Made by a program: the position numbers and the translations under genes. A stretch of 64,000 nucleotides of DNA from Fimbriimonadia bacterium (GTDB lineage: Bacteria > Armatimonadota > Fimbriimonadia > Fimbriimonadales > JABRVX01): NCBI GenBank assembly GCA_039961735.1, contig JABRVX010000031.1:1-64000 (forward strand), in the 5' to 3' direction. The notes below the pieces were generated by a model. That model searched no databases. It saw nothing but the letters and a program-made list of their open reading frames with translations, and was not told the origin of the DNA. Numbering within the stretch: the stretch's first letter is position 1; each line of letters opens with the position of its first letter. Positions 52,000 through 64,000 of the stretch are shown here, piece after piece.

Positions 52000-52479
52000 A
52001 TGAAGAGGCTGTTGATTGGCCTGCTAGGAGTAGCCCTTTTCGCCGCGATGGCGTTGGCCGTTGGCGAGGGAGTCGCATTCGGAAGCGGCACGATCCAGAT
52101 GCCCAATCGCGCCTTGGGAGTGTTCAGCTTCCACGCGGGCTCGTTCGATGGCAACATCAGAGGGTTTCTGAACTTCCGAGAGGTGCTTCGGTCCAACACC
52201 GGGCGCGAGAAGACGATCCACACCGTTCGCCTTAAAGTCGAGAAGTTCGAGTGCCGGGATAAGAACGCCGTGTTCTCTGGGCCAGCTTTGTTCGACGGCA
52301 GGCAGGCCTACGCCGAGGTGTTCGTATCGGATCGCTGGTACCCCGGCAGCCCCCTCGACGTCTTGGATCATTTCGAGATGAAGGTGTTCTCGCCGGACGG
52401 CAACGCAGTGTATCGGGCCGGCGGTCCGGTGCGCGGCGACATCGTCGTACGCTGTGGCCCTCCTCCCGGGCGTCTGTAG
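52000..52479 (+). CDS. Secreted protein of unknown function
   Basis: A 159-residue protein with a clear signal peptide (MKRLLIGLLGVALFAAMALAVG). The mature part is beta-rich and polar, with VFSFHAGSFDGNIRGFLNFREV, TIHTVRLKVEKFECRDKNAVFSGPALF and VSDRWYPGSPLDVLDHFEMKV. Two Cys (in KFECRD and VRCGPP) could form a disulfide. No family was recognised. AAAGGAG sits upstream of ATG 52000. Monocistronic, with its own terminator. Confidence 0.75.
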   Translation: MKRLLIGLLGVALFAAMALAVGEGVAFGSGTIQMPNRALGVFSFHAGSFDGNIRGFLNFREVLRSNTGREKTIHTVRLKVEKFECRDKNAVFSGPALFDGRQAYAEVFVSDRWYPGSPLDVLDHFEMKVFSPDGNAVYRAGGPVRGDIVVRCGPPPGRL

Positions 52480-52514
52480 TTCGTAGAGTTCTCACCTCTG
52501 CCTGTCTACCGTAC

Positions 52515-52540
52515 CAGGGCCGCTCATCGCAGCGGCCCTG
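52515..52540 (+). terminator. Terminator-like hairpin
   Basis: CAGGGCCGCT and AGCGGCCCTG form a perfect 10-bp stem with a CATCGC loop, about 35 bases past the secreted protein gene. The tail CTTCATAGCTGTTCT is moderately T-rich. Confidence 0.65.
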
Positions 52541-52639
52541 CTTCATAGCTGTTCTCCCAAGGAACTGGCATGGCGAAGTCGAAAGTACAAAAGCAGTACG
52601 CAGTGCCGGGTGCCCAAGGCCCGGCGTTCGAGGTGGGGG

Positions 52640-53272
52640 ATGAGCGAGGAAAAGAAGCCCGAGCTCAGTCGAAGGCAATTCCTAAAGTCGGTAGGTGCAG
52701 CGGCGGCCGTTGCGACCGTAGGTGGAGCCGCTGGGCTGCACAAAGGTCACCCCGAGACCGTGGGAAGCCCGGCGAGCGTGACACCACAGGGTGTCGGCGA
52801 GCGGACGGTCAGTCTGAATGTGAACGGCGAAGTCCATCGGCTGCTCCTGGAGCCACGCATGACTTTGTTGGACGCGATTCGTGATAGGCTGGGCCTCACT
52901 GGATCCAAACGAGTGTGCGACCGAGGCACCTGCGGCGCTTGCACCGTATACCTCGACGGCAAACCCATCTATGCGTGCCTGAAACTCGCCGTCGACTGCG
53001 AGGGCCACAAGGTCGAGACGGTTGAAAGCCTCGCGCCCGACGGCAAGCTGAATGCTGTTCAGCAGGCGTTCGTGAACCACGACTCGCTGCAATGCGGGTT
53101 TTGCACGCCCGGCTTCGTGATGTGTGTGAATCATCTGTTGAAGACGAACAAAAGCCCGAGTTTGGCGGATATCAAGAACGCTTGCTCGGGCAACGTGTGC
53201 CGATGCGGCACGTACACACGCATCTTCGAGGCCGCCGAGAGCGCAGCGAAGGCGATGAGGGAGGGAGCCTAA
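52640..53272 (+). CDS. Aldehyde oxidoreductase [2Fe-2S] subunit, Tat-exported (PaoA/YagT-like)
   Basis: A 210-residue xanthine oxidase-family iron-sulfur subunit. The twin-arginine signal SRRQFLK is at residues 10-16, followed by a hydrophobic Ala/Gly/Val stretch. The plant-type [2Fe-2S] ligands are C93, C98, C101 and C113. The second cluster uses C152-x2-C155 and C187-x-C189 (CGFC and CRC). It passes electrons from the molybdenum subunit to FAD. A Tat signal on this small subunit is the hallmark of periplasmic PaoABC. ATG 52640 follows GAGGTGGGGG. The large-subunit gene starts one base after the stop. Confidence 0.92.
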   Translation: MSEEKKPELSRRQFLKSVGAAAAVATVGGAAGLHKGHPETVGSPASVTPQGVGERTVSLNVNGEVHRLLLEPRMTLLDAIRDRLGLTGSKRVCDRGTCGACTVYLDGKPIYACLKLAVDCEGHKVETVESLAPDGKLNAVQQAFVNHDSLQCGFCTPGFVMCVNHLLKTNKSPSLADIKNACSGNVCRCGTYTRIFEAAESAAKAMREGA

Positions 53273-53273
53273 C

Positions 53274-55355
53274 ATGTCGGAGTGGAACGACCGCTCGAAG
53301 ACCAAGTATGTCGGTCAGCGGGTGACGCGCGTCGAGGGGCCCCTCAAGGTGTCGGGGCGGGCGAAATACACGTACGACATTCAGCTCCCCGACATGCTAT
53401 ACGGTGCCATCCTTGGCTCGCCCCACGCCGCGGCGCAGGTTAAGTCCGTGGATATCTCGGAGGCGGAACGAATGCCCGGGGTGAAGGCCGTGCACGTGGT
53501 TGCAGGGCCGGGAACCAACCTCAGGCACCAGGGGCAGGACGTCGCGGCAGTGGCGGCGACAACGGAGCAGCAAGCACGCGATGCGCTGCGGGCAATCCGG
53601 GTCGAGTACGAGGTTCGCCCCCATCGAGTCATTACACAAGTCGCCTCTCAAGACCCGGAGCGGATGGAGCCCTTCCCTGCTCTTTCCGACGAAGCGCAGA
53701 CCGCACTCCGTGCGGCCGACGCGACCATTGAGGGCTCCTACAGCGTCCCTGTCCGCATTCACACCTGCCTGGAGACTCATGGTTGCGTGGTGCGTTGGGA
53801 CGGAGATGACCGATTCACCATGTGGTGCTCCACCCAGGCCGTACACGGCGTGCGTGGCGGCATGGCGCAGAACCAAGGCGTGCCCGCGGGGAACGTCCGC
53901 GTGATCTGCGAGCATATGGGTGGGGGGTTCGGCAGCAAGCTGGGACCGGGCAGCGAGTTCGCCGTCTGCGCCGCGCTGGCGAAGAAGGCGAAGGCTCCTG
54001 TCAAGTTGATGCGCGACCGCCACACCGAGCAGTTGACCACGGGCAACGGTCCGGATGCCCATGCTCGCGTGAGGGCGGGCGCTCGCAAGGACGGAAAGCT
54101 GGCAGTGATTGCGGCGGATTGCTTCGGCACCTCCGGCTACAGTGCGCAATGGGGAATGCCCTTTCCGTACGTGTACCGAGCGGAGACACGGGCGGTGAGA
54201 TCTCGGCCCGTTCGCACCAATTGCGGGTCCGATGCGCCACTTCGCGCACCCATGCATCCGCAGGCTTGCGCGATCACCGAGCAAGTGGTGGATGAGCTGG
54301 CCTATGCTCTGGGCATGGATCCGCTGGAGCTGCGGCTGGCAAACACCGACGGGGTACGCAAACAGCAGTTCGAGTTGGGAGCAAAACTCTTCGGGTGGGA
54401 GAAGCGGAACCCGAAGCCTGGGTCGGACGGCGGGCGCTTCCGGCGCGGCATGGGGGTGGGAACGTCCGCGTGGGGTGGCGGCGGGGGCCCCGGCTCTCGA
54501 GTAGAGCTCACGATTCACCGAGACGCCACGATCGAGGTTAAGCTAGGCACCCAGGACCTCGGCACCGGTACCCGCACCTACGTGGCTTCCATCGTTGCGG
54601 AAGATCTCGGGGTGGATATCTCTCAGGTTCGCGCCATGATCGGTGACAGCGACTTCGGCTACTCCGGTGCGAGCGGGGGGTCCACCACTACGGCATCGGT
54701 AGCACCTGCGGTGAAAACGGCGTCGCTCGAAGCGAGGAGGCAGCTTTTCGAGAAGGCTGCCGAGATGGTCGGCCAGCCCGCCGAGGAACTCGACGCTCGC
54801 GACGGCAAGGTGTTCGTTTCGAGCGACCCGTCGAAGAGCATCACGTTTGCCGAAGTCTGCTCTAGGCTCGGTGTCGCGGGGATCGTGGCGAACGGGACCT
54901 TCGATGCTTCGTTGCAGCAGGGCGGCGTCGCGGGGGTGCAGTTCGCGGAGGTGGAAGTGGACATGTGGACCGGCCGTGTGCGGCCCATTCGCGTTCTGGC
55001 AGTCCATGACTGCGGCTACTGGATGAACCGACTGACCACCGAGAGCCAGATCATCGGCGGCGTCATTCAAGGCATTGGCATGGCGCTACTCGAAGAGCGC
55101 AAGATGGACGAGAACACGGGCCGATGCCTGAACCCGGACCTGGAGCAGTACAAGTTGCCCGGACCGTGGGAGATGCCCGAGATTGTGCCACACCTTTTCG
55201 AGACGCACCAGAAAGTGGCGGGCATAGGCGAGCCGCCGGTCATCCCAACTGCAGGCGCCATTGCCAACGCCGTGTTCCACGCGTCGGGCCTGCGCATTCG
55301 GCACCTACCTATCACCCCGCGGAAGCTCTTGGAGGCGATGGATGAACGCGTTTGA
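53274..55355 (+). CDS. Aldehyde oxidoreductase molybdenum-binding subunit (PaoC/YagR-like)
   Basis: A 693-residue xanthine oxidase-family large subunit. Domain start YVGQRVTRVEGPLKVSGRAKYTYDIQLPDMLYGAI; molybdopterin-binding segments GGGFGSKLGPGSEFAVCAALAKKAKAPVKLMRDR, and GGSTTTASVAPAV. The catalytic Glu is in GIGEPPVIPTAGAI, at about residue 653. It hydroxylates aldehydes or N-heterocycles with water as oxygen source. PaoC has no signal of its own and is co-exported with the Tat-bearing subunit. The order here is A-C-B, unlike E. coli paoABC. Substrate unknown; aldehydes are the family expectation. Confidence 0.92.
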   Translation: MSEWNDRSKTKYVGQRVTRVEGPLKVSGRAKYTYDIQLPDMLYGAILGSPHAAAQVKSVDISEAERMPGVKAVHVVAGPGTNLRHQGQDVAAVAATTEQQARDALRAIRVEYEVRPHRVITQVASQDPERMEPFPALSDEAQTALRAADATIEGSYSVPVRIHTCLETHGCVVRWDGDDRFTMWCSTQAVHGVRGGMAQNQGVPAGNVRVICEHMGGGFGSKLGPGSEFAVCAALAKKAKAPVKLMRDRHTEQLTTGNGPDAHARVRAGARKDGKLAVIAADCFGTSGYSAQWGMPFPYVYRAETRAVRSRPVRTNCGSDAPLRAPMHPQACAITEQVVDELAYALGMDPLELRLANTDGVRKQQFELGAKLFGWEKRNPKPGSDGGRFRRGMGVGTSAWGGGGGPGSRVELTIHRDATIEVKLGTQDLGTGTRTYVASIVAEDLGVDISQVRAMIGDSDFGYSGASGGSTTTASVAPAVKTASLEARRQLFEKAAEMVGQPAEELDARDGKVFVSSDPSKSITFAEVCSRLGVAGIVANGTFDASLQQGGVAGVQFAEVEVDMWTGRVRPIRVLAVHDCGYWMNRLTTESQIIGGVIQGIGMALLEERKMDENTGRCLNPDLEQYKLPGPWEMPEIVPHLFETHQKVAGIGEPPVIPTAGAIANAVFHASGLRIRHLPITPRKLLEAMDERV

Positions 55356-56319
55356 GTGGGTAACACCCAAAGACCTGAAGGGAGCCGTCTCCGCACTGAG
55401 TGGCGACAGCGCCAAAGTGCTCGCGGGTGGGATTGACCTGCTATGCGAGATGAAAGAGGGGCTTGTCACCCCCTCGCACGTCGTCAACCTGAAATCCATC
55501 GCCGGGCTGAACCAGATGGTGGGAAGAGACGACCTGCGGATCGGCGCTCTGGTCACGCTGACGGAGCTTGCCGAATCGGAGTCTGTCAGGTCGCAGTACA
55601 AGGCGGTGGCGGAGGCCGCATTGTCCGTCGGTTCGCCGCAGATCCGGAACGTGGGGACGGTGGGCGGGAACCTGTGCCAACGGCCCCGCTGTTGGTATTA
55701 CCGCGACGTCGCAATCGAGTGCTTGAAAAAGGGCGGCGACCGCTGCTTTGCGGAGGACGGCGAGAACGAGTACCACGCGATCTTGGGCGGGGGGCCTTGC
55801 CACATCGTGCATCCTTCGGACCTCGCCCCGGCTCTGATCGCCTTCGACGCCAAGGTGGAGATTCAGGGCACGTCAGCGCGCTCGCTTCCGTTGCTCGACT
55901 TCTTCGTGCTGCCTGCGGTGAACTGGGGGCAAGAGAACGTTCTGGCCCCGAACGAGATCGTGACCGCCGTGACGCTGCCCAAGGCGACGGCGGGCTGGAA
56001 GAGCGCCTACTACAAGTTCCGCGAGCGGGAGTCTTTCGATTGGGCGTTGGCGAGCGCAGCCGTAACGCTGCGAATGTCGGGCAACACCGTCCAGGACTGT
56101 CGGGTAGTGCTCGGCGGGGTGGCGCCAATTCCATGGCGGTCCAAGGAAGCGGAATCGGCCTTGAAAGGCAAGACTATAAGCCCCGCCCTAGCCGAAGCTG
56201 CGGGCAAGGCCGCGGTCACGGGGGCGAAGCCGCTGAAGCACAACGGCTACAAGGTGCGGTTGGCAGCCAACGTGGTTCGAATCGCGTTGCTTCGCGCCGC
56301 AGGGTTAGAGGAGGCCTAG
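55342..56319 (+). CDS. Aldehyde oxidoreductase FAD and [4Fe-4S] subunit (PaoB/YagS-like)
   Basis: A 325-residue FAD-binding subunit. FAD motifs are AGGIDLL (28-34) and GTVGGN (105-110). A Cys-rich insertion, C112, C117, C127 and C135, matches the extra [4Fe-4S] cluster of PaoB and distinguishes it from ordinary xanthine dehydrogenase subunits. C153 is further on. It sends electrons from flavin to an acceptor. The ATG at 55342 overlaps the end of the large-subunit gene by 14 bases. No PaoD/XdhC maturation gene is visible nearby. Confidence 0.92.
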   Translation: MNAFEWVTPKDLKGAVSALSGDSAKVLAGGIDLLCEMKEGLVTPSHVVNLKSIAGLNQMVGRDDLRIGALVTLTELAESESVRSQYKAVAEAALSVGSPQIRNVGTVGGNLCQRPRCWYYRDVAIECLKKGGDRCFAEDGENEYHAILGGGPCHIVHPSDLAPALIAFDAKVEIQGTSARSLPLLDFFVLPAVNWGQENVLAPNEIVTAVTLPKATAGWKSAYYKFRERESFDWALASAAVTLRMSGNTVQDCRVVLGGVAPIPWRSKEAESALKGKTISPALAEAAGKAAVTGAKPLKHNGYKVRLAANVVRIALLRAAGLEEA

Positions 56320-57355: not shown

Positions 57356-59797
57356 ATGAAATGGCTGCTGCTCGCCGGTGGGCTGTTGGTCGCCTTCTGG
57401 ATCACGGCTATGGCGTTGCGACCGCCGGAAGCTGGCCCTGGTGTAATCAAGCTGCGCGTATGGGGCATGAGCCTGGGGGAGGAAGACAAGGGCTTCGCGG
57501 CGCAGATCCGCGAGTTCGAACGCAGAAACCCCGGCATCGAGGTCTCGGTGCTCTCGATGGGCGCGGGGGCCATGAACCCCCAGAAGCTCCTGACGGCCAT
57601 CGTCGGCAAGTCGCCCCCTGATCTCGTCTTCCAAGACCGCTTCACCATCGGCGACTGGGCAAGTCGTGGCGCGTTCGAACCTCTCGATGACCTGTTGGAA
57701 AGAGACCGAGACGACCCAATGTGCCCGCGGCAGGAAGACTACTACCCGGCGACCTGGAGTGAAGCCGTCTACAGGGGCAAGGTGTACGCGATCCCGGCGG
57801 GGACGGACGACCGGGCGCTCTACTGGAATCGAGAGGTCTTTCGACAAGCCGCTCCGAGGCTGCGTAAAGCCGGGCTGGACCCGACCCGCCCACCGAGAAC
57901 CTGGTCCGAGCTCAAAGCCTACGCGCTGGCGCTGACCGAGCGGCGACCGGACGGCACGTTCAAGCGCATCGGCTTCATCCCGAACTTCGGGAACTCGTGG
58001 CTGTACCTCTACTCGTGGCAGATGAACGGAGAGTTCATGTCGCCGGACGGGAAGACGTGCACGCTGGACAATCCACGCACGCGGAAGGCCCTGGAGTTCA
58101 TGGTCGAGATGTATGACATGCTCGGCGGTATCGAGCGAATCGAGGGCTTCGTATCGGGCTTTCAAGGGAACGAGTTGGACCCTTTCCTCACGGGCAAGCT
58201 GGCGATGAAGATCGACGGGAGCTGGTCGCTTGGGCACATCGCACGATATCGTCCCACGCTCGATTTCGGTGTCGCGCCCGCGCCGGTACCGGACGATCGC
58301 TATTACCGACGCGGCGAGTTCCGCGATGAGAAGGACACCTTCATCACCTGGGGCGGCGGCTTCTCCTACGCGATCCCCACTGGCTCGAAGAATGTAGAGG
58401 CCGCTTGGAAGTTCATCAAGTGGATGACCAGCCCGGAGTCGGCTGTGCTGGACGTGCGGGTGCAGGGTGAGTACTACGCGAGCCTCGGACGCATCAATGT
58501 GATGACGTTCCGCGCCAACCGGATTGCCACCGAACGCCTCTACCGTGAGTTCCGGCCCGAGTCGGAGAACCTGGCTGCGGGCCTGCGACAGTTTATCGAT
58601 CTGCTGCCGACCGCGCGGTTCCGCCCCGTGACATTCGTCGGGCAGAAGCTATGGGATGAGCATGTGCGCGCGTTCGACCAAGCCGTGCGCCACGTGCAGA
58701 CACCCGAGGACGCATTGCGCAACGGCCGTCTCGCCGTGCAGAGAGAGCTGGACAGGGTGTCGGAGATCGAGCGGTATCCAGAGGTGCCCGCTGCAGCGAT
58801 AGACTTGGTGGCGGGTCTCGTGATCGGCGGCGTGCTGGGTGGGATCGTGTTCGCGTTGTTGAGGGTTCGTCGAATGAGCCGACTCGCGCGGGGAGAGGCG
58901 CTGGCGGGCTATGCGTTTATCACCCCTTGGGTGCTCGGGTTCGTGTGTTTCACGGCGGGGCCGATTCTCGTCTCCATCCTACTCAGCTTCTGTCACTACG
59001 ATGCGATGCACCCTGCCAGGTGGGTGGGTACGGCCAACTACTCCGAGCTGTTCACTTCGGATTGGGCGAAGTTCGGGAAGGCGGCATATAACGTCTTCTA
59101 CCTGGCAGTGATCGGCGTGCCGCTCAACCTCGTGACGGGGCTCGCGATTGCCATGCTGTTGAACACCGGCGTGCGTGGCATGACGGTGTATCGCACGGGG
59201 TTCTACATCCCGGCGGTAGCACCCATCGTGGCTGCCGGCGTGCTGTGGGCGTGGGTGCTCTCGGGCGATCCGGAGAAGGGGCTCCTGAATGCAGCACTGA
59301 GAGTGGTATGGTCGGGTGAACTGCCAGGGTGGCTTTCTTCTGCGACGTGGTCGAAGCCGGCTCTGATCGTGATGGGCCTGTGGGGTGCGGGCGGTGGAAT
59401 GGTGCTGTGGTTGGCGGGACTTCAGGGCGTACCGAAGCAGTTGTACGAAGCCGCCCGCATAGACGGAGCGAACTCCTGGCAATGCTTCCGAAAGATCACT
59501 CTCCCACAGATATCGCCCTATCTGTTCTTCAATGTGATCATGGGTTCCATCGGTGCGCTGCAGGAATTCGACAGAATCTACATCATGCGCCCTCCCGGCT
59601 CCGAGGGTGTGGGGCCGGTGGACAGCCTACTGGTGCCGGTGTTCTATCTGTTCGACAACGGCTTCAAGTACTTTCGCATGGGGTATGCGTCCTCGATTGC
59701 GTGGGTGCTGTTCGTGGTAGTTCTGGCGCTCACGGTGATCCAACTCAAGCTCGCGCCGCGCTGGGTGTACTATGAGGGGGCGAGGGCTAAGGAATGA
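57356..59797 (+). CDS. ABC importer: solute-binding protein fused to MalF-type permease
   Basis: An 813-residue fusion. An uncleaved-looking N-terminal anchor (WLLLAGGLLVAFWITAMAL) is followed by a complete family 1 solute-binding domain, about residues 30-460 (VIKLRVWGMSLGEEDKGFAAQIREFERRNPGIEV ... VEAAWKFIKWMTSPES). Then come a helix at about 482-503 and a permease from about 515 with some six TM helices and the EAA loop YEAARIDGANSWQCFRKITLPQ near residue 698. The two parts are normally separate proteins. The stop overlaps the next permease by 4 bases. Sugar import is likely. Confidence 0.9.
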   Translation: MKWLLLAGGLLVAFWITAMALRPPEAGPGVIKLRVWGMSLGEEDKGFAAQIREFERRNPGIEVSVLSMGAGAMNPQKLLTAIVGKSPPDLVFQDRFTIGDWASRGAFEPLDDLLERDRDDPMCPRQEDYYPATWSEAVYRGKVYAIPAGTDDRALYWNREVFRQAAPRLRKAGLDPTRPPRTWSELKAYALALTERRPDGTFKRIGFIPNFGNSWLYLYSWQMNGEFMSPDGKTCTLDNPRTRKALEFMVEMYDMLGGIERIEGFVSGFQGNELDPFLTGKLAMKIDGSWSLGHIARYRPTLDFGVAPAPVPDDRYYRRGEFRDEKDTFITWGGGFSYAIPTGSKNVEAAWKFIKWMTSPESAVLDVRVQGEYYASLGRINVMTFRANRIATERLYREFRPESENLAAGLRQFIDLLPTARFRPVTFVGQKLWDEHVRAFDQAVRHVQTPEDALRNGRLAVQRELDRVSEIERYPEVPAAAIDLVAGLVIGGVLGGIVFALLRVRRMSRLARGEALAGYAFITPWVLGFVCFTAGPILVSILLSFCHYDAMHPARWVGTANYSELFTSDWAKFGKAAYNVFYLAVIGVPLNLVTGLAIAMLLNTGVRGMTVYRTGFYIPAVAPIVAAGVLWAWVLSGDPEKGLLNAALRVVWSGELPGWLSSATWSKPALIVMGLWGAGGGMVLWLAGLQGVPKQLYEAARIDGANSWQCFRKITLPQISPYLFFNVIMGSIGALQEFDRIYIMRPPGSEGVGPVDSLLVPVFYLFDNGFKYFRMGYASSIAWVLFVVVLALTVIQLKLAPRWVYYEGARAKE

Positions 59798-61164
59798 CGC
59801 TCCACAGCGCCCTTATACCCGTAACCTCGCTGTTCCTCGTGTTCGCTCTTTGGTTGACGGGGTGGGCCGGCATCGGGTGTAGGGGAATTATCGGCCGATG
59901 GAGTTGGGTGTTCCTCGTCTTCGGGTCGATGGGAGTCGTGCTGGTGACAGCGGCGCTAGGGGTATTAGTATCATCGCCGCCAGGCGAGCCTGCTCGGTTC
60001 GGATACTCGATCCACACACAAGGAAAGAGCTACGCGATCCTCGTGGCGGTCGGTTCGTTGATGCTGTTAGGCACACTCTTCGGCGCACTCTTTGCGGGCA
60101 TGAGGTCGCGCAGGGGCTTGCATGCGACCCGGGGCGCTGCGAGAGACAGCCTGCTGCATATCGTACTCACGGCCGGTTTGGTAGTCTTCGGTATCCCCTT
60201 CGCATGGCTGGTCGTTACGTCGTTCAAGGAAGACGTGGACATGGCGAAAGTACCCCCGGTGTGGGTGCCTCGCGTTCAGCAGTACGTACAGATCGAGGGA
60301 CGCCGGGCGGCGCTCGTAACAGGCGAGTACCGGGGTACGAAGTTCAAGGGCGCAGCGGTCCGTGAGTTTGCGGACGGACGTCGTACCATCCAGATTCTCG
60401 AGCCGGAAAGGCTTGCGGGAACGCGATTCACTGCGCGCACCGGAGACACCGAGAACGTTCGCGAAGTGGGCTTGAAGTGGGAGAACTACGCTCGCGCGGT
60501 TCGCAGCCTGCCAGAGGAGACCGTATACGGCACCGTGTACGTGTTCAACACACTTCTCCTAGTTGCGTTGAACATGGCAGGTACATTGCTTTCCAGCTCC
60601 ATCGTGGGCTATGCCTTCGCACGACTGCGCTTTCCAGGACGGGATGCCATCTTTCTCATGTTACTGGCGACGCTGATGTTGCCGGGGGCAGTGACTATGC
60701 TACCCGTGTTCCTCATCTTCCGTTCGCTCGGATGGGTGGATACGCTGTATCCGCTATGGGTGCCATCGCTGTTCGGTTCGGCGTTCAACATCTTCCTGCT
60801 ACGGCAGTTCTTCCTAACCGTGCCTATGGAGTTGGAGGAGGCCGCGAGGATTGATGGGTGCGGCTACGTACAGACGTACTGGTCTATCATGCTGCCACAG
60901 GTGCGGCCCGCGCTGGCAGCCGTAGCCATCTGGACGTTCACGGGGACGTGGAACAACTTCATGGGGCCGCTGATCTACATCAACTCACCGGAGCGAATGC
61001 CCGTCTCCTATGCGCTGCAGCTCTTCCAGAGTGCCCACGGAGGGGACCCTGGCGCTCTCATGGCTGCTACTACCATGGTCATGCTACCGGTCGTGCTGGT
61101 GTTCTTCTTTGCTCAGCGATACTTCATCGAGGGTGTTACCCTCACGGGCATGGGGGGGCGGTAG
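59794..61164 (+). CDS. MalG-type ABC permease with long N-terminal and periplasmic extensions
   Basis: A 456-residue permease, well above the usual 270-300. About 110 residues of extra TM helices (TSLFLVFALWLTGWAGIG, VFLVFGSMGVVLVTAALGVLV, SYAILVAVGSLMLLGTLFGALF) precede the canonical first helix. An 85-residue soluble insertion (WVPRVQQYVQIEGRRAALVTGEYRG ... LKWENYARAVRSLP) sits before the core, which has the EAA loop EEAARIDGCGYVQTYWSIMLPQ near residue 348. Partner of the fused subunit at 57356. No ATPase gene follows. Confidence 0.9.
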   Translation: MTLHSALIPVTSLFLVFALWLTGWAGIGCRGIIGRWSWVFLVFGSMGVVLVTAALGVLVSSPPGEPARFGYSIHTQGKSYAILVAVGSLMLLGTLFGALFAGMRSRRGLHATRGAARDSLLHIVLTAGLVVFGIPFAWLVVTSFKEDVDMAKVPPVWVPRVQQYVQIEGRRAALVTGEYRGTKFKGAAVREFADGRRTIQILEPERLAGTRFTARTGDTENVREVGLKWENYARAVRSLPEETVYGTVYVFNTLLLVALNMAGTLLSSSIVGYAFARLRFPGRDAIFLMLLATLMLPGAVTMLPVFLIFRSLGWVDTLYPLWVPSLFGSAFNIFLLRQFFLTVPMELEEAARIDGCGYVQTYWSIMLPQVRPALAAVAIWTFTGTWNNFMGPLIYINSPERMPVSYALQLFQSAHGGDPGALMAATTMVMLPVVLVFFFAQRYFIEGVTLTGMGGR

Positions 61165-61344
61165 CAAGATGCGCCCGACACCGATAAGACGAAGTAGGAG
61201 CCGCGCGAAGCCGCAGGTGGTGGTGCCACCGATCATGGGCGCTGGCCAGGGCATAGGTCCGAGTCCGCTCGACGCCCTTCCAGATCCACGTCTTGCGTGC
61301 ACGCCTCGGTAACGGTGCCGGGCGACGACATACGGGTAGGTCGC

Positions 61345-62121
61345 CTACAGGTAGCCCAGCACCTTGTGCAACTGGGGGATGACGCGGACGTCTGCGCCGT
61401 GGCGGGAGAGGTGTACAGCCCACGCGAGCAGTTGGCCAGCACCGGGGGGCTTCTGCTCGGGCGCTACCGATGTCACCGGTTGCAGAATCAGCGTCACCGT
61501 GTGCCGCATACACAGCTCCGCAGCCCGCTCGAGATCCTCTTCCTGCGTGTCGGCCGCCACCACGCACTTTGCGAACACCTGCGCGCGCGACGCACACGCG
61601 ACCTCCAAGAAGGCATCGTGCCGCTCGAAAAGGTCGGTGTCATGCGAGACCGAGGGCAGCTTGATATCCGCGGCGATCCAGTCCACCCATAGCACCACGC
61701 GCGAGAGTTGCCGCACGAGATCGCCCGCCGTCTCCAGATACACACGCAGCCCGCGCTCGCGCAGTAGGGGGAAAAGATCCACCAGCCCTTCGGCCTGGAG
61801 CAGCGGCTCGCCCCCCGTGATGGCGATCGAGTGGTGCGGTCCAAACCGCCGGTCGAGGTCCACTATCAAGTCGCGTACGGCTTCCGGCTCTACCGGGTTG
61901 GCCTCCGAACGAAACGTCTGCGATCCCGGCGGGTCTTCGATGCGGAAGCGGGGCGGCAGGAAGCCCTTAGGCTGAAGCACCGACTTGGTCTCCGGGGTGT
62001 CGCAGTACACGCAGTCCAAGTGGCATCCGAACAGCCGGACGAAGACCTGGCGCACGCCGACCAACAGCCCCTCGCCCTGGATGGAGGAGAATACCTCCTG
62101 CAGAACGAGCGGGCGGCTCAT
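61345..62121 (-). CDS. queE: 7-carboxy-7-deazaguanine synthase
   Basis: A 258-residue radical SAM enzyme that turns 6-carboxytetrahydropterin into 7-carboxy-7-deazaguanine on the way to queuosine. The cluster motif is C33-x3-C37-x2-C40 (FGCHLDCVYCDT) and the SAM-binding GGEP motif is in ITGGEPLLQ. The substrate region has SSIQGEG near the N terminus. ATG 62121 is chosen because it gives this N terminus and overlaps the queD stop by 4 bases. Confidence 0.94.
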   Translation of the reverse strand: MSRPLVLQEVFSSIQGEGLLVGVRQVFVRLFGCHLDCVYCDTPETKSVLQPKGFLPPRFRIEDPPGSQTFRSEANPVEPEAVRDLIVDLDRRFGPHHSIAITGGEPLLQAEGLVDLFPLLRERGLRVYLETAGDLVRQLSRVVLWVDWIAADIKLPSVSHDTDLFERHDAFLEVACASRAQVFAKCVVAADTQEEDLERAAELCMRHTVTLILQPVTSVAPEQKPPGAGQLLAWAVHLSRHGADVRVIPQLHKVLGYL

Positions 62122-62462
62122 TGGGGAGAATATCGGCAGGCGCAGTCGGCGGTCTCCCACACGGTAACCGCGCTCACCGGCAAGCCTCGCTCGGCCAGCC
62201 TGCCGAACAGCCACTCAGCGATTGCCTCGGCGGTAGTGGGCCCCGGAAGCACATCGTTGAGGTAGCTATGATCGGGGACGACTTCCGCGAGGGCACGTTT
62301 GAGGTCGCCGAAGTCCACCACCATGCCGAGACCATCCAGCTCCCGACCCGTAAACTCGGCTTCGACCTCGTATCGGTGGCCGTGCAACCGACTGCAGGCG
62401 CCCGGGTGATCCGGAATGCAGTGCGCGGCCTCGAACTGCGTCCTTACACGGAGCGTGTACAT
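62118..62462 (-). CDS. queD: 6-carboxy-5,6,7,8-tetrahydropterin synthase
   Basis: A 114-residue QueD/PTPS-fold protein. The zinc ligands are His14, His27 and His29 (FEAAHCIP ... CSRLHGHRY) and the catalytic Cys is C23. MVVDFGDLK and a final VWETADCACRY with the conserved Glu complete the site. It makes 6-carboxytetrahydropterin from dihydroneopterin triphosphate for QueE. queC and queF are not in the window. The regulator gene lies 30 bases upstream on the same strand. Confidence 0.94.
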   Translation of the reverse strand: MYTLRVRTQFEAAHCIPDHPGACSRLHGHRYEVEAEFTGRELDGLGMVVDFGDLKRALAEVVPDHSYLNDVLPGPTTAEAIAEWLFGRLAERGLPVSAVTVWETADCACRYSPQ

Positions 62463-62492
62463 CGTGGATATCTTAGCACGCGCGAGGCGGGC

Positions 62493-62912
62493 TCAGGTGC
62501 CGAGCATGACGTCCGTCTCGCGGACGAACGCGAGCACACGGGAACCGGGCTGCAATCCCATGCGCCGGGCGGAGGCTGCTGGAATGAGAGCGGCCATCTC
62601 CTGTCCGCCATCGAGTATCAGCGTGACTTCGGCGATGGTCTTGTCTACGTTGACCTGCTTCACCGTTCCCATCAGGCGGTTGCGCGTGCTTACCTCCAGG
62701 GCTAGCGGGAGCTCTGGCTCGACGACCACCTTCGGTCCGAGAAGCTCGGCGCGGATGACCGCGACCTGCTCGGGCGAATACCAGCGCCAGTTGCGCCAGT
62801 CGCGTTCTGGCGCGGGGATTTTGCCCGTGCGCTCCCACATGTAGAGCGTCTTCGGGGTCACCCCGAGCGCCGCGGCGGCTTCCGAACGGCTGAGCTTGCC
62901 TTGCTTCTCCAT
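62493..62912 (-). CDS. MerR-type helix-turn-helix protein fused to a Mop (molybdate-binding) domain
   Basis: A 139-residue protein. Residues about 5-60 form a MerR/excisionase-like winged helix (KLSRSEAAAALGVTPKTLYMWERTGKIPAPERD, WRWYSPEQVAVIRAEL). Residues about 72-139 form a single Mop/TOBE domain (STRNRLMGTVKQVNVDKTIAEVTLILDGG), the fold that binds molybdate or tungstate in ModE, ModC and molbindins. Mop domains need to dimerise or oligomerise to bind the ligand. It is probably a molybdate-responsive repressor or activator. It precedes queD by 30 bases and faces the redox gene at 63000. ATG 62912; no clear Shine-Dalgarno. Confidence 0.8.
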   Translation of the reverse strand: MEKQGKLSRSEAAAALGVTPKTLYMWERTGKIPAPERDWRNWRWYSPEQVAVIRAELLGPKVVVEPELPLALEVSTRNRLMGTVKQVNVDKTIAEVTLILDGGQEMAALIPAASARRMGLQPGSRVLAFVRETDVMLGT

Positions 62913-62999
62913 GGCCTGACAGCTTTTGATTCGACGGTGGTTAACGAGTCCTGCAGCGGAGCAGGATTCCCTTTCGCGCCGGGGAAGGCAATCGGTGAG

Positions 63000-64000
63000 A
63001 TGGATGCACCGACTCGAACCGAGTTCCTTCACATTCCACCTGGCGGACAACTGCTTTTCTACGCCCTATCCGCCTTGGTGGTGCTGACGATGGTTTTCTG
63101 CATCTGGCGGCGGATGCGCCTCTGGATGCAGGGGAAGCCGACGCCATACTCGCTGCGGCCGGATTGGGCGCGGTTGCGTGCCATTCTGCGCGACGTGGTG
63201 CTGCAGCGAAAGGTGACGCGCTCACGCAAGACGTTCGGCGCGCCCATGCACTTGCTGCTATTCAGCGGCTTCGTGATCCTGCTGATCGGCACCACGTTGC
63301 TTGCTATTCACCACTGGGCCCCTGAGGGACTGAAGTTTCACCGCGGCACCTACTACCTAGTGTACGAGGTAACGCTGGACGTCTTCGGGGTGGTATTGCT
63401 CGTCGGGCTGTTAGGAGCTATCGGGAGGCGGTACTTCGCCAAGCCGAAGTCGCTAGGCAGGGAGCCATCGGACCTATGGCTGCTAGGTTCGCTGCTGGCG
63501 ATCACTGTGACGGGGTTCCTCGTCGAAGGCGGACGCATCGAATTGGAGCCGAAGCAGTACGACATCTACTCCCCCGTAGGATTGGGCGTGTCCCTGTGGA
63601 TGGACTGGATCGATCCAGTATCTTACCAGGTGCTATGGTGGGTGCATGCGAGCCTGGTGTTCGGATTCCTAGCTTCTCTTCCCTTCACGCGCATTCGTCA
63701 CATAGTGTACGCACTCTTCTCCACCTACATGGCGCCGGCACGGGCGATGGGTGCCCTAGCGCCTGTTTCGATGGAGGAGGTCGAGAAGACGGGCAAGGTG
63801 GGCGCGATCGAATGGCGCGATTATGATAGGTATCAACTCGCCTCACTGGATGCTTGTATGGAGTGTGGTCGCTGTACAGATGTGTGTCCTGCCACGGGAG
63901 TGGGCAAGACACTCGACCCGCAGCGCATCGTGCAAGACCTACGGCACATCGTGGGTAACGGCAAGCCGGTCGCCGAAGCGCTGACCGAGGAGGCTCTGTG
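63000..64000 (+). CDS. Membrane iron-sulfur oxidoreductase, NarI/HdrD-like (partial, runs off the right edge)
   Basis: The first 333 codons of a longer gene. About five TM helices lie in residues 15-240 (LLFYALSALVVLTMVFCIW, MHLLLFSGFVILLIGTTLLAIHHW, VTLDVFGVVLLVGLLGAIG), with conserved His (HLLLF, IHHW, WVHASLVFGF) that may bind haem b. A 4Fe-4S motif follows: CMECGRCTDVCPATG at about residue 287. This arrangement matches NarI-type membrane domains joined to HdrD/GlpC-type iron-sulfur domains. Probably moves electrons between menaquinone and a cytoplasmic partner. The ATG at 63000 follows GGTGAG; the gene is divergent from the MerR-Mop gene. Confidence 0.85.
   Translation, partial: MDAPTRTEFLHIPPGGQLLFYALSALVVLTMVFCIWRRMRLWMQGKPTPYSLRPDWARLRAILRDVVLQRKVTRSRKTFGAPMHLLLFSGFVILLIGTTLLAIHHWAPEGLKFHRGTYYLVYEVTLDVFGVVLLVGLLGAIGRRYFAKPKSLGREPSDLWLLGSLLAITVTGFLVEGGRIELEPKQYDIYSPVGLGVSLWMDWIDPVSYQVLWWVHASLVFGFLASLPFTRIRHIVYALFSTYMAPARAMGALAPVSMEEVEKTGKVGAIEWRDYDRYQLASLDACMECGRCTDVCPATGVGKTLDPQRIVQDLRHIVGNGKPVAEALTEEAL

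Follow-up and report, generated by a model that had tools for sequence, protein, structure and literature searches.

The gene at 62493..62912 (minus strand) of the DNA analysed here, a stretch of 64,000 nucleotides from a Fimbriimonadia bacterium that we call the window, raises a question about signal and target: what does a regulator sense, and which genes does it control, when a MerR-type helix-turn-helix (HTH) is joined to a single Mop domain and placed ahead of queD and queE? An earlier note on this DNA had read the gene as a possible molybdate or tungstate sensor controlling redox or deazapurine genes. We lean, at slightly better than even confidence, to the reading that its product, P0001 (139 aa), is a ModE-like repressor in which molybdate sensing has been lost or weakened and which autoregulates its operon.

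Architecture of the regulator and its setting

The open reading frame starts with an ATG at 62912 and its stop codon ends at 62493. Translation, Pfam and the relatives described below agree on two domains: a MerR-type HTH (residues 10-45; 62778..62885, minus strand; PF00376, E 8.9e-10, 38.7 bits against a Pfam cut-off of 28.2) and a Mop/TOBE domain (residues 73-138; 62499..62696, minus strand; PF03459, E 8.5e-11, 42.4 bits against a cut-off of 22.3). The latter forms the only TOBE stretch that Pfam recognises in the protein, and it scores 55 bits against the NCBIfam Mop model TIGR00638, equal to the cut-off of 55 as printed. Pfam matches up to E 1 included MerR, MerR_1, HTH_3, HTH_17 and other HTH models, with HTH_1 absent from them. 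The fusion is not a product of chance, since relatives carrying both domains, with 38-51% identity to P0001, were found in 11 other genomes without internal stops. The MerR-like head with a single Mop domain, first noticed from the letters of the window, was therefore borne out both by Pfam matches above the cut-offs and by the relatives.

An AlphaFold2 model built from 12 aligned sequences (mean pLDDT 79.7, pTM 0.43) comprises the HTH, a linker with pLDDT below 50 (residues 61-74) and an OB-type domain (residues 81-139, mean pLDDT 82-93 per block). The long dimerisation helix of MerR style is missing from the model, in which helix 47-58 is followed by the low-pLDDT linker. The best PDB matches of the model in Foldseek were ModE, MopII, ModG and Tub (including 1gug, 1h9m and 9beb), the proteins to which the Mop domain is alike both by sequence and by fold; RacA, NmlR and BldC, matching the HTH, stood further down the list (E 0.01-0.03).

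ModE of Escherichia coli (PDB 1o7l, 1b9m) was the top match, with a TM-score of 0.44 and an rmsd of 12.7 that restrict the likeness to a domain-by-domain one; common to both proteins are a DNA-binding head and a Mop sensor, and some relatives of P0001 also share the company of mod genes. The differences are that ModE has a LysR-type head and two Mop domains, whereas P0001 has a MerR-type head, one Mop domain and two changed ligand residues. In TunR of sulfate reducers, a non-LysR, integrase-type DNA-binding domain is joined to TOBE domains. Regulators of the ModE kind with a single TOBE domain are already described in PMC11980592, as are regulators of the order HTH_17, PBP-like, TOBE. The TudE/ModE-like single-TOBE regulators resemble P0001 in combining an HTH with one TOBE domain, but their HTH is named helix-turn-helix-9 in a legend of that paper, whereas that of P0001 is MerR-type; the TaoR-like regulators, as presented in the same text, share with it an HTH of the excisionase/MerR-like class and a TOBE domain in one protein, and differ in their PBP-like domain, for which P0001 gave no Pfam match. 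In a literature search, with most subscription journals outside its coverage, none of the papers listed was on a MerR-type HTH directly joined to one Mop domain.

On its 3' side the regulator is followed, after 30 nt (62463-62492), by queD (62118..62462, minus strand), a PTPS-family gene with PF01242 at E 1.1e-31 and with TIGR03367 below the NCBIfam cut-off (86.6 bits against 89.25), and then by the radical SAM gene queE (61345..62121, minus strand), matched by several QueE models, all below their cut-offs, and with a possible ATG at 62121 that overlaps the queD stop codon as ATGA. On its 5' side a divergent intergenic region of 87 nt (62913..62999), a likely promoter site for both directions, leads to a gene on the plus strand (63000..63998) that continues past the window. 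The whole product of this gene (652 aa) has a QmoC/NarI-like N-terminus and a TfrB-like C-terminus, with family scores that reach none of the curated cut-offs. The range 62493-63000, singled out by the earlier note, corresponds to the regulator gene plus the intergenic region, and the spacings of 30 and 87 bases that it gave are correct; from its description of the divergent gene as NarI/HdrD-type we retain the NarI-like N-terminus, at sub-cut-off scores, HdrD-type being that note's own label.

The molybdenum aldehyde oxidoreductase that had been placed near 52640 is a real set of three subunit genes: a 2Fe-2S subunit (52610-53272) and a Mo subunit (53274-55355), both by Pfam, and a FAD subunit in frame at 55261-56319. 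Also in the window, an 813-aa frame (57356-59797, plus strand) joins a binding protein of the extracellular sugar type (SBP_bac_1, residues 44-363) to an ABC permease domain (BPD_transp_1, residues 593-802), and a second permease comes after it (59794-61164). Beyond the window (L053:4656-9381), the divergent redox gene is followed by genes for a xylulokinase, a 386-aa product that matches no NCBIfam model, and an AcsV-like corrinoid-activation protein.

Relatives of the fusion and their molybdate transporter genes

The source genome of the window (G000; 3.24 Mb, 98.9% complete) is the sole genome of its family in the comparison. Any match to P0001 was found in 29 of the 291 Armatimonadota genomes searched, and a match to both domains in 12, the source genome included; the remaining 17 were left out of the fusion counts because the match did not span both domains. 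None of the other frames that were analysed or read turned out to be a fusion of this kind: Mop alone in G209 and G026; a double-TOBE protein with a SCO4226-like part in G008; eight frames at seven loci (L020, L021, L025, L027, L029, L030 and L032, the last being the second match of G058) with no TOBE at E 0.001, by Pfam or as read; and the minus-strand frames of L017-L019, L022, L023, L026, L028 and L031, in which no Mop was seen by eye. The G008 protein (L052:5775-6467), with its SCO4226-like domain and two TOBE stretches, is an unusual Mop fusion in its own right.

In wider genome contigs the search with the single P0001 protein returned no relatives, and an alignment-based search returned 28 loci, 9 of them matched over both domains, including one in a Candidatus Eisenbacteria genome (L087), and 19 (L092-L110) over all or part of the HTH half. 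Among the 20 of 35 records listed from a plasmid collection, HTH_17/MerR plus TOBE proteins came from the actinobacteria Nonomuraea (L034), Nocardia (L036) and Rhodococcus (L033); these have the domain order of P0001 and about equal length, and differ from it in an identity of about 30% and a different wing. Among the same 20 listed records, L037 and L038 are double-TOBE proteins, and L035 is a MerR protein with no Mop visible by eye. The fusion was thus found across several phyla and the architecture is not peculiar to this window; the search for it in other genomes, which the earlier note had put forward as a check, yielded 11 further Armatimonadota genomes, L087 and the actinobacterial records.

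The linkage to molybdate transport genes known from ModE is absent at the fusion of the source genome. Five of the 12 fusion genomes show it, with modA-modB coming directly after the fusion: G021, G022, G023 and G025, which belong to one family, and G058, from a different one. A TIGR01256 match follows the fusion immediately in all five; for ModB, a model match identifies the protein in G021 and G058, and similarity does so in G022, G023 and G025. The G058 locus adds a ModC with TOBE, and the fusions of L034 and L036 adjoin genes matching the ModA, ModB and ModC of G058. No annotated mod gene was found within 6 kb of the L033 fusion, on a Rhodococcus opacus plasmid, and in the sister family f2 the fusion was not beside mod genes in the loci read. 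ModA is present and the fusion absent in G069 and G070, indicating that the fusion is not needed for uptake. The position upstream of molybdate-transporter genes in 5 of the 12 makes it plausible that the family senses molybdate or tungstate, and the mod-linked relatives appear to be autoregulators of molybdate uptake that resemble ModE but use a different DNA-binding head.

Other neighbours recur in f2. A gene of an ASCH group (115-132 aa, grouped by BLAST) stands beside the fusion in 5 of the 6 genomes of this family (L039, L040, L042, L044, L049), convergent in four and co-directional in G068; it is ASCH by Pfam in G067, G072 and G068. In G067 (L039:10163-10621; identified by Pfam) and G073 (L041:7277-7741; identified by similarity) the fusion is preceded, at a distance of 21-28 nt, by smpB in the same orientation.

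Upstream of the fusion in four of the five mod-linked genomes, all four of one family and two of one genus, there is a palindrome, RGGTA-N5-TACCC, that overlaps a -10-like box (GGGTA-N5-TACCC exactly in G021, G022 and G025; one mismatch in G023). The -10-like hexamers under it are TATAAT, TATACT, TACAAC and TATAAC, and the palindrome ends 12-30 nt before the presumed fusion start; TTGACT precedes the hexamer by 18 nt in G023 and G025, and none was seen in G021 and G022. Operators of the MerR superfamily lie between the -35 and -10 elements, with a spacer of 19-20 nt. A related half-site, GACCGGGTAA, is present in G058 and L087.

Because the palindrome was found in these very promoters, its presence there is no independent test, and its rarity elsewhere is one. 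When 12 whole genomes were scanned, the exact palindrome occurred once in the 7.6-Mb G021 genome, at the fusion promoter; twice each in G022 and G025, with one of the two sites at the fusion promoter; twice each in G058 and G068, with neither site at the fusion; and nowhere in the other seven, the source genome with its zero sites among them. The pattern read backwards, used as control, occurred 10 times in G021 and 5 times in the source genome. At the exact sites away from fusion promoters (one in G022, one in G025, two in G058, two in G068) no Mo gene was recognised in the ORF lists. By analogy with ModE, an autorepressed mod operon would be expected to carry such a palindrome over its promoter, and the mod-linked fusions may act as repressors at this candidate operator.

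The molybdate pocket and molybdate import

According to PMC11980592, the buried sites of Tub from Eubacterium limosum use Ser4 and Lys60 through their side chains, Arg6 and Ala61 through the backbone, and Ser40 through side chain and backbone alike. Through a gap-free HMMER alignment to MopII, Tub positions 4, 6, 40, 60 and 61 correspond to 75, 77, 111, 131 and 132 of P0001. Ser75 and Arg77 are kept, and two of the three side-chain ligands are changed: Ser/Thr40 to Pro111 (codon 62580..62582, minus strand) and Lys60 to Arg131 (codon 62520..62522, minus strand); the Ala61 position holds Glu132. The earlier note had named the loss of Mop ligand residues on alignment as evidence that would count against a sensor, and with Pro111, Arg131 and Glu132 this is at least partly what was found. 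To judge from the residues present, Arg131 may still hold an anion, and P0001 could bind weakly.

Positions 111 and 131 are both changed in exactly three of the 12 fusions: P0001 itself, that of G066 (Pro and Asn) and that of G068 (Pro and Arg, plus Ala75 and Pro77). Ser/Thr and Lys are kept in the other 9, and also in L087, L034 and L036. The HTH_17-TOBE protein of Rhodococcus opacus (L033:5977-6384) has Gly and Glu at the two ligand positions, and is possibly a further case of a sensor without molybdate.

ModA is absent in exactly the same three among the 12 fusion genomes, none of which has SBP_bac_11 either; G068 is 88% complete, and its missing genes could lie in gaps. Searches of the source genome for ModA (TIGR01256), SBP_bac_11 and TupB gave no match; for ModB the highest score was 50.8 bits, at the level of a generic permease, where the cut-off is 182.6. 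Apart from P0001, PF03459 matched a single protein of this genome, a UgpC/MalK-like ABC ATPase, so that no further Mop sensor came to light. The genome does encode MoaA and a xanthine-dehydrogenase-type enzyme with its three subunits, indicating that Mo is seemingly still used and that molybdate presumably enters the cell and could be sensed. MoaA and a Mo enzyme of this type, yet no ModA-family protein, were found in G066 as well as in the source genome. Among genomes with the ligands kept, that of L087 has SBP_bac_11 proteins (best 176.8 bits) and G067 has a ModA-like protein (L147:5391-6221), with no ModB above 43.6 bits or beside it; in G209 (88% completeness) Thr and Lys are intact in what seems to be a Mop standing alone, although no ModA was found.

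In the tree, from which L033 was omitted, P0001 and the G068 protein form two long end branches and 5 of the 12 inner branches are well supported. Parsimony gives three losses of the ligands on the best tree, and the independent-pairs test had one supported pair, a number with which significance is unreachable. With one supported pair, 5 of 12 supported branches and three genomes, the association of ligand change with missing ModA is not statistically established; it is suggestive.

The two halves of P0001 have diverged to different degrees. Compared with five f11/f15 rows, the HTH of P0001 has 55.6% identity and its Mop half 41.9%; the four f2 siblings with a ModA-family protein have 53.6-59.2% and 53.8-63.1%, respectively. 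The Mop half of P0001 thus lies 12-21 points below the siblings, and its HTH at their level. In the G068 protein both halves are lowered against the same rows (HTH 49.6%, Mop 33.4%); in that of G066 neither is lowered overall (62.4% and 56.6%), only the ligand positions being changed.

Two changed ligands, together with the finding of no transporter, indicate that P0001 probably no longer senses molybdate well. The proposal of a molybdate or tungstate sensor consequently keeps its plausibility for the family, through the mod-linked relatives, and is not supported for P0001, in which ligands are changed and whose genome showed no ModA.

Possible control of the queDE promoter

No sigma-70-like promoter was recognised by consensus in 62440-63060. 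The divergent intergenic region contains an imperfect inverted repeat, GAGTCCTGC-N6-GCAGGATTC (62946..62969), as a weak operator candidate, the core of which occurs at two places in the source genome; as an operator it did no better than chance, since 149 of 2000 window pieces and 123 of 2000 shuffles contain a repeat of equal quality. With neither an exact mod-operon palindrome nor a significant repeat, no operator could be assigned in the source genome. With up to two mismatches, the mod-operon palindrome has 22 sites in the window against 15.2 expected, and 5 of 100 shuffles reach 22. An action of P0001 on the aldehyde oxidoreductase genes, about 10 kb away, had also been suggested; it found no support, as 52401-52640 and the 87-nt intergenic region have no 8-mer (and no 9-mer) in common. 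The Rfam matches up to E 1 in 61000-64000 are two weak ones, both under the gathering score, with no preQ1 riboswitch among them. A weak match to Ms_AS-4, an actinobacterial sRNA (62493-62572, plus strand; 29.5 bits against a gathering score of 50), is antisense to the 3' end of the Mop region and likely due to chance.

QueD, QueE and the divergent redox protein gave no tblastn match at E 1e-3 in the 15 other fusion loci, several of which are short at contig ends. The deazapurine or redox link therefore rests on one genome, and the free variation of neighbours between genomes, which the earlier note had said would weigh against its proposal, was at least partly observed.

Three other explanations of P0001 were weighed against these results. 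A working molybdate or tungstate sensor of altered affinity, controlling redox or deazapurine genes, would be in keeping with the retention of Ser75 and Arg77 and the basic character of residue 131, with the Mop model score that reaches its cut-off, with MoaA and a xanthine-dehydrogenase-type Mo enzyme in the same genome, and with the mod operons headed by 5 of the 12 relatives; we hold it to be doubtful, however, in view of a proline in place of the serine that in Tub contributes its side chain as well as its backbone, of the ModA-family importer that was not found, of a Mop half less conserved than in the siblings and of neighbours that were not found at the relatives' loci. The long end branch of P0001, its lowered Mop identity and the lack of a recognised transporter are what might be expected of a regulator gene drifting after the loss of molybdate import, with no important regulatory role now. 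This explanation is very improbable, because drift alone would not keep a 139-codon frame intact and HTH identity in the range of the siblings.

The intact frame despite ligand loss also fits a Mop pocket re-tuned to another oxyanion or to a pterin/deazapurine intermediate, which would make P0001 a feedback regulator of the queDE operon. The regulator probably heads an operon that continues, after 30 nt, with queD-queE, and the Rfam matches in 61000-64000 include no preQ1 riboswitch; but the queDE neighbourhood comes from one genome only and the sequence points to no specific new ligand, and we consider this explanation improbable. Its wider form, according to which the MerR-Mop protein became, after import loss, a feedback regulator of queDE and of the divergent redox gene that senses a pterin/deazapurine intermediate or another anion, appears quite improbable.

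The reading that we prefer, a ModE-like repressor with molybdate sensing lost or weakened, suggests the following course. The ancestor would have been a one-component molybdate-responsive regulator, with a MerR-type HTH in the place of the LysR-type head of ModE and with one Mop domain as sensor. In the mod-linked relatives the Mop domains would pair and bind molybdate at their interface, and the protein, sitting on the promoter palindrome, would shut its own regulator-modAB operon. In the lineage of the source genome the importer may have been lost and the pocket have followed, the DNA-binding half being kept. P0001 would then bind DNA largely or wholly independently of molybdate. By regulating its own promoter it would control the operon that it forms with queD and queE, and perhaps the divergent redox gene as well.

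For the family, these results describe a ModE-like control module in which the head is MerR-type; it is linked to mod operons both in Armatimonadota and in actinobacteria and comes with a specific candidate operator. The three relatives with a changed pocket and no importer found, together with an HTH that in P0001 is conserved at the level of its siblings, constitute a natural experiment, one that may help to show how the signal of a one-component sensor is lost or altered.
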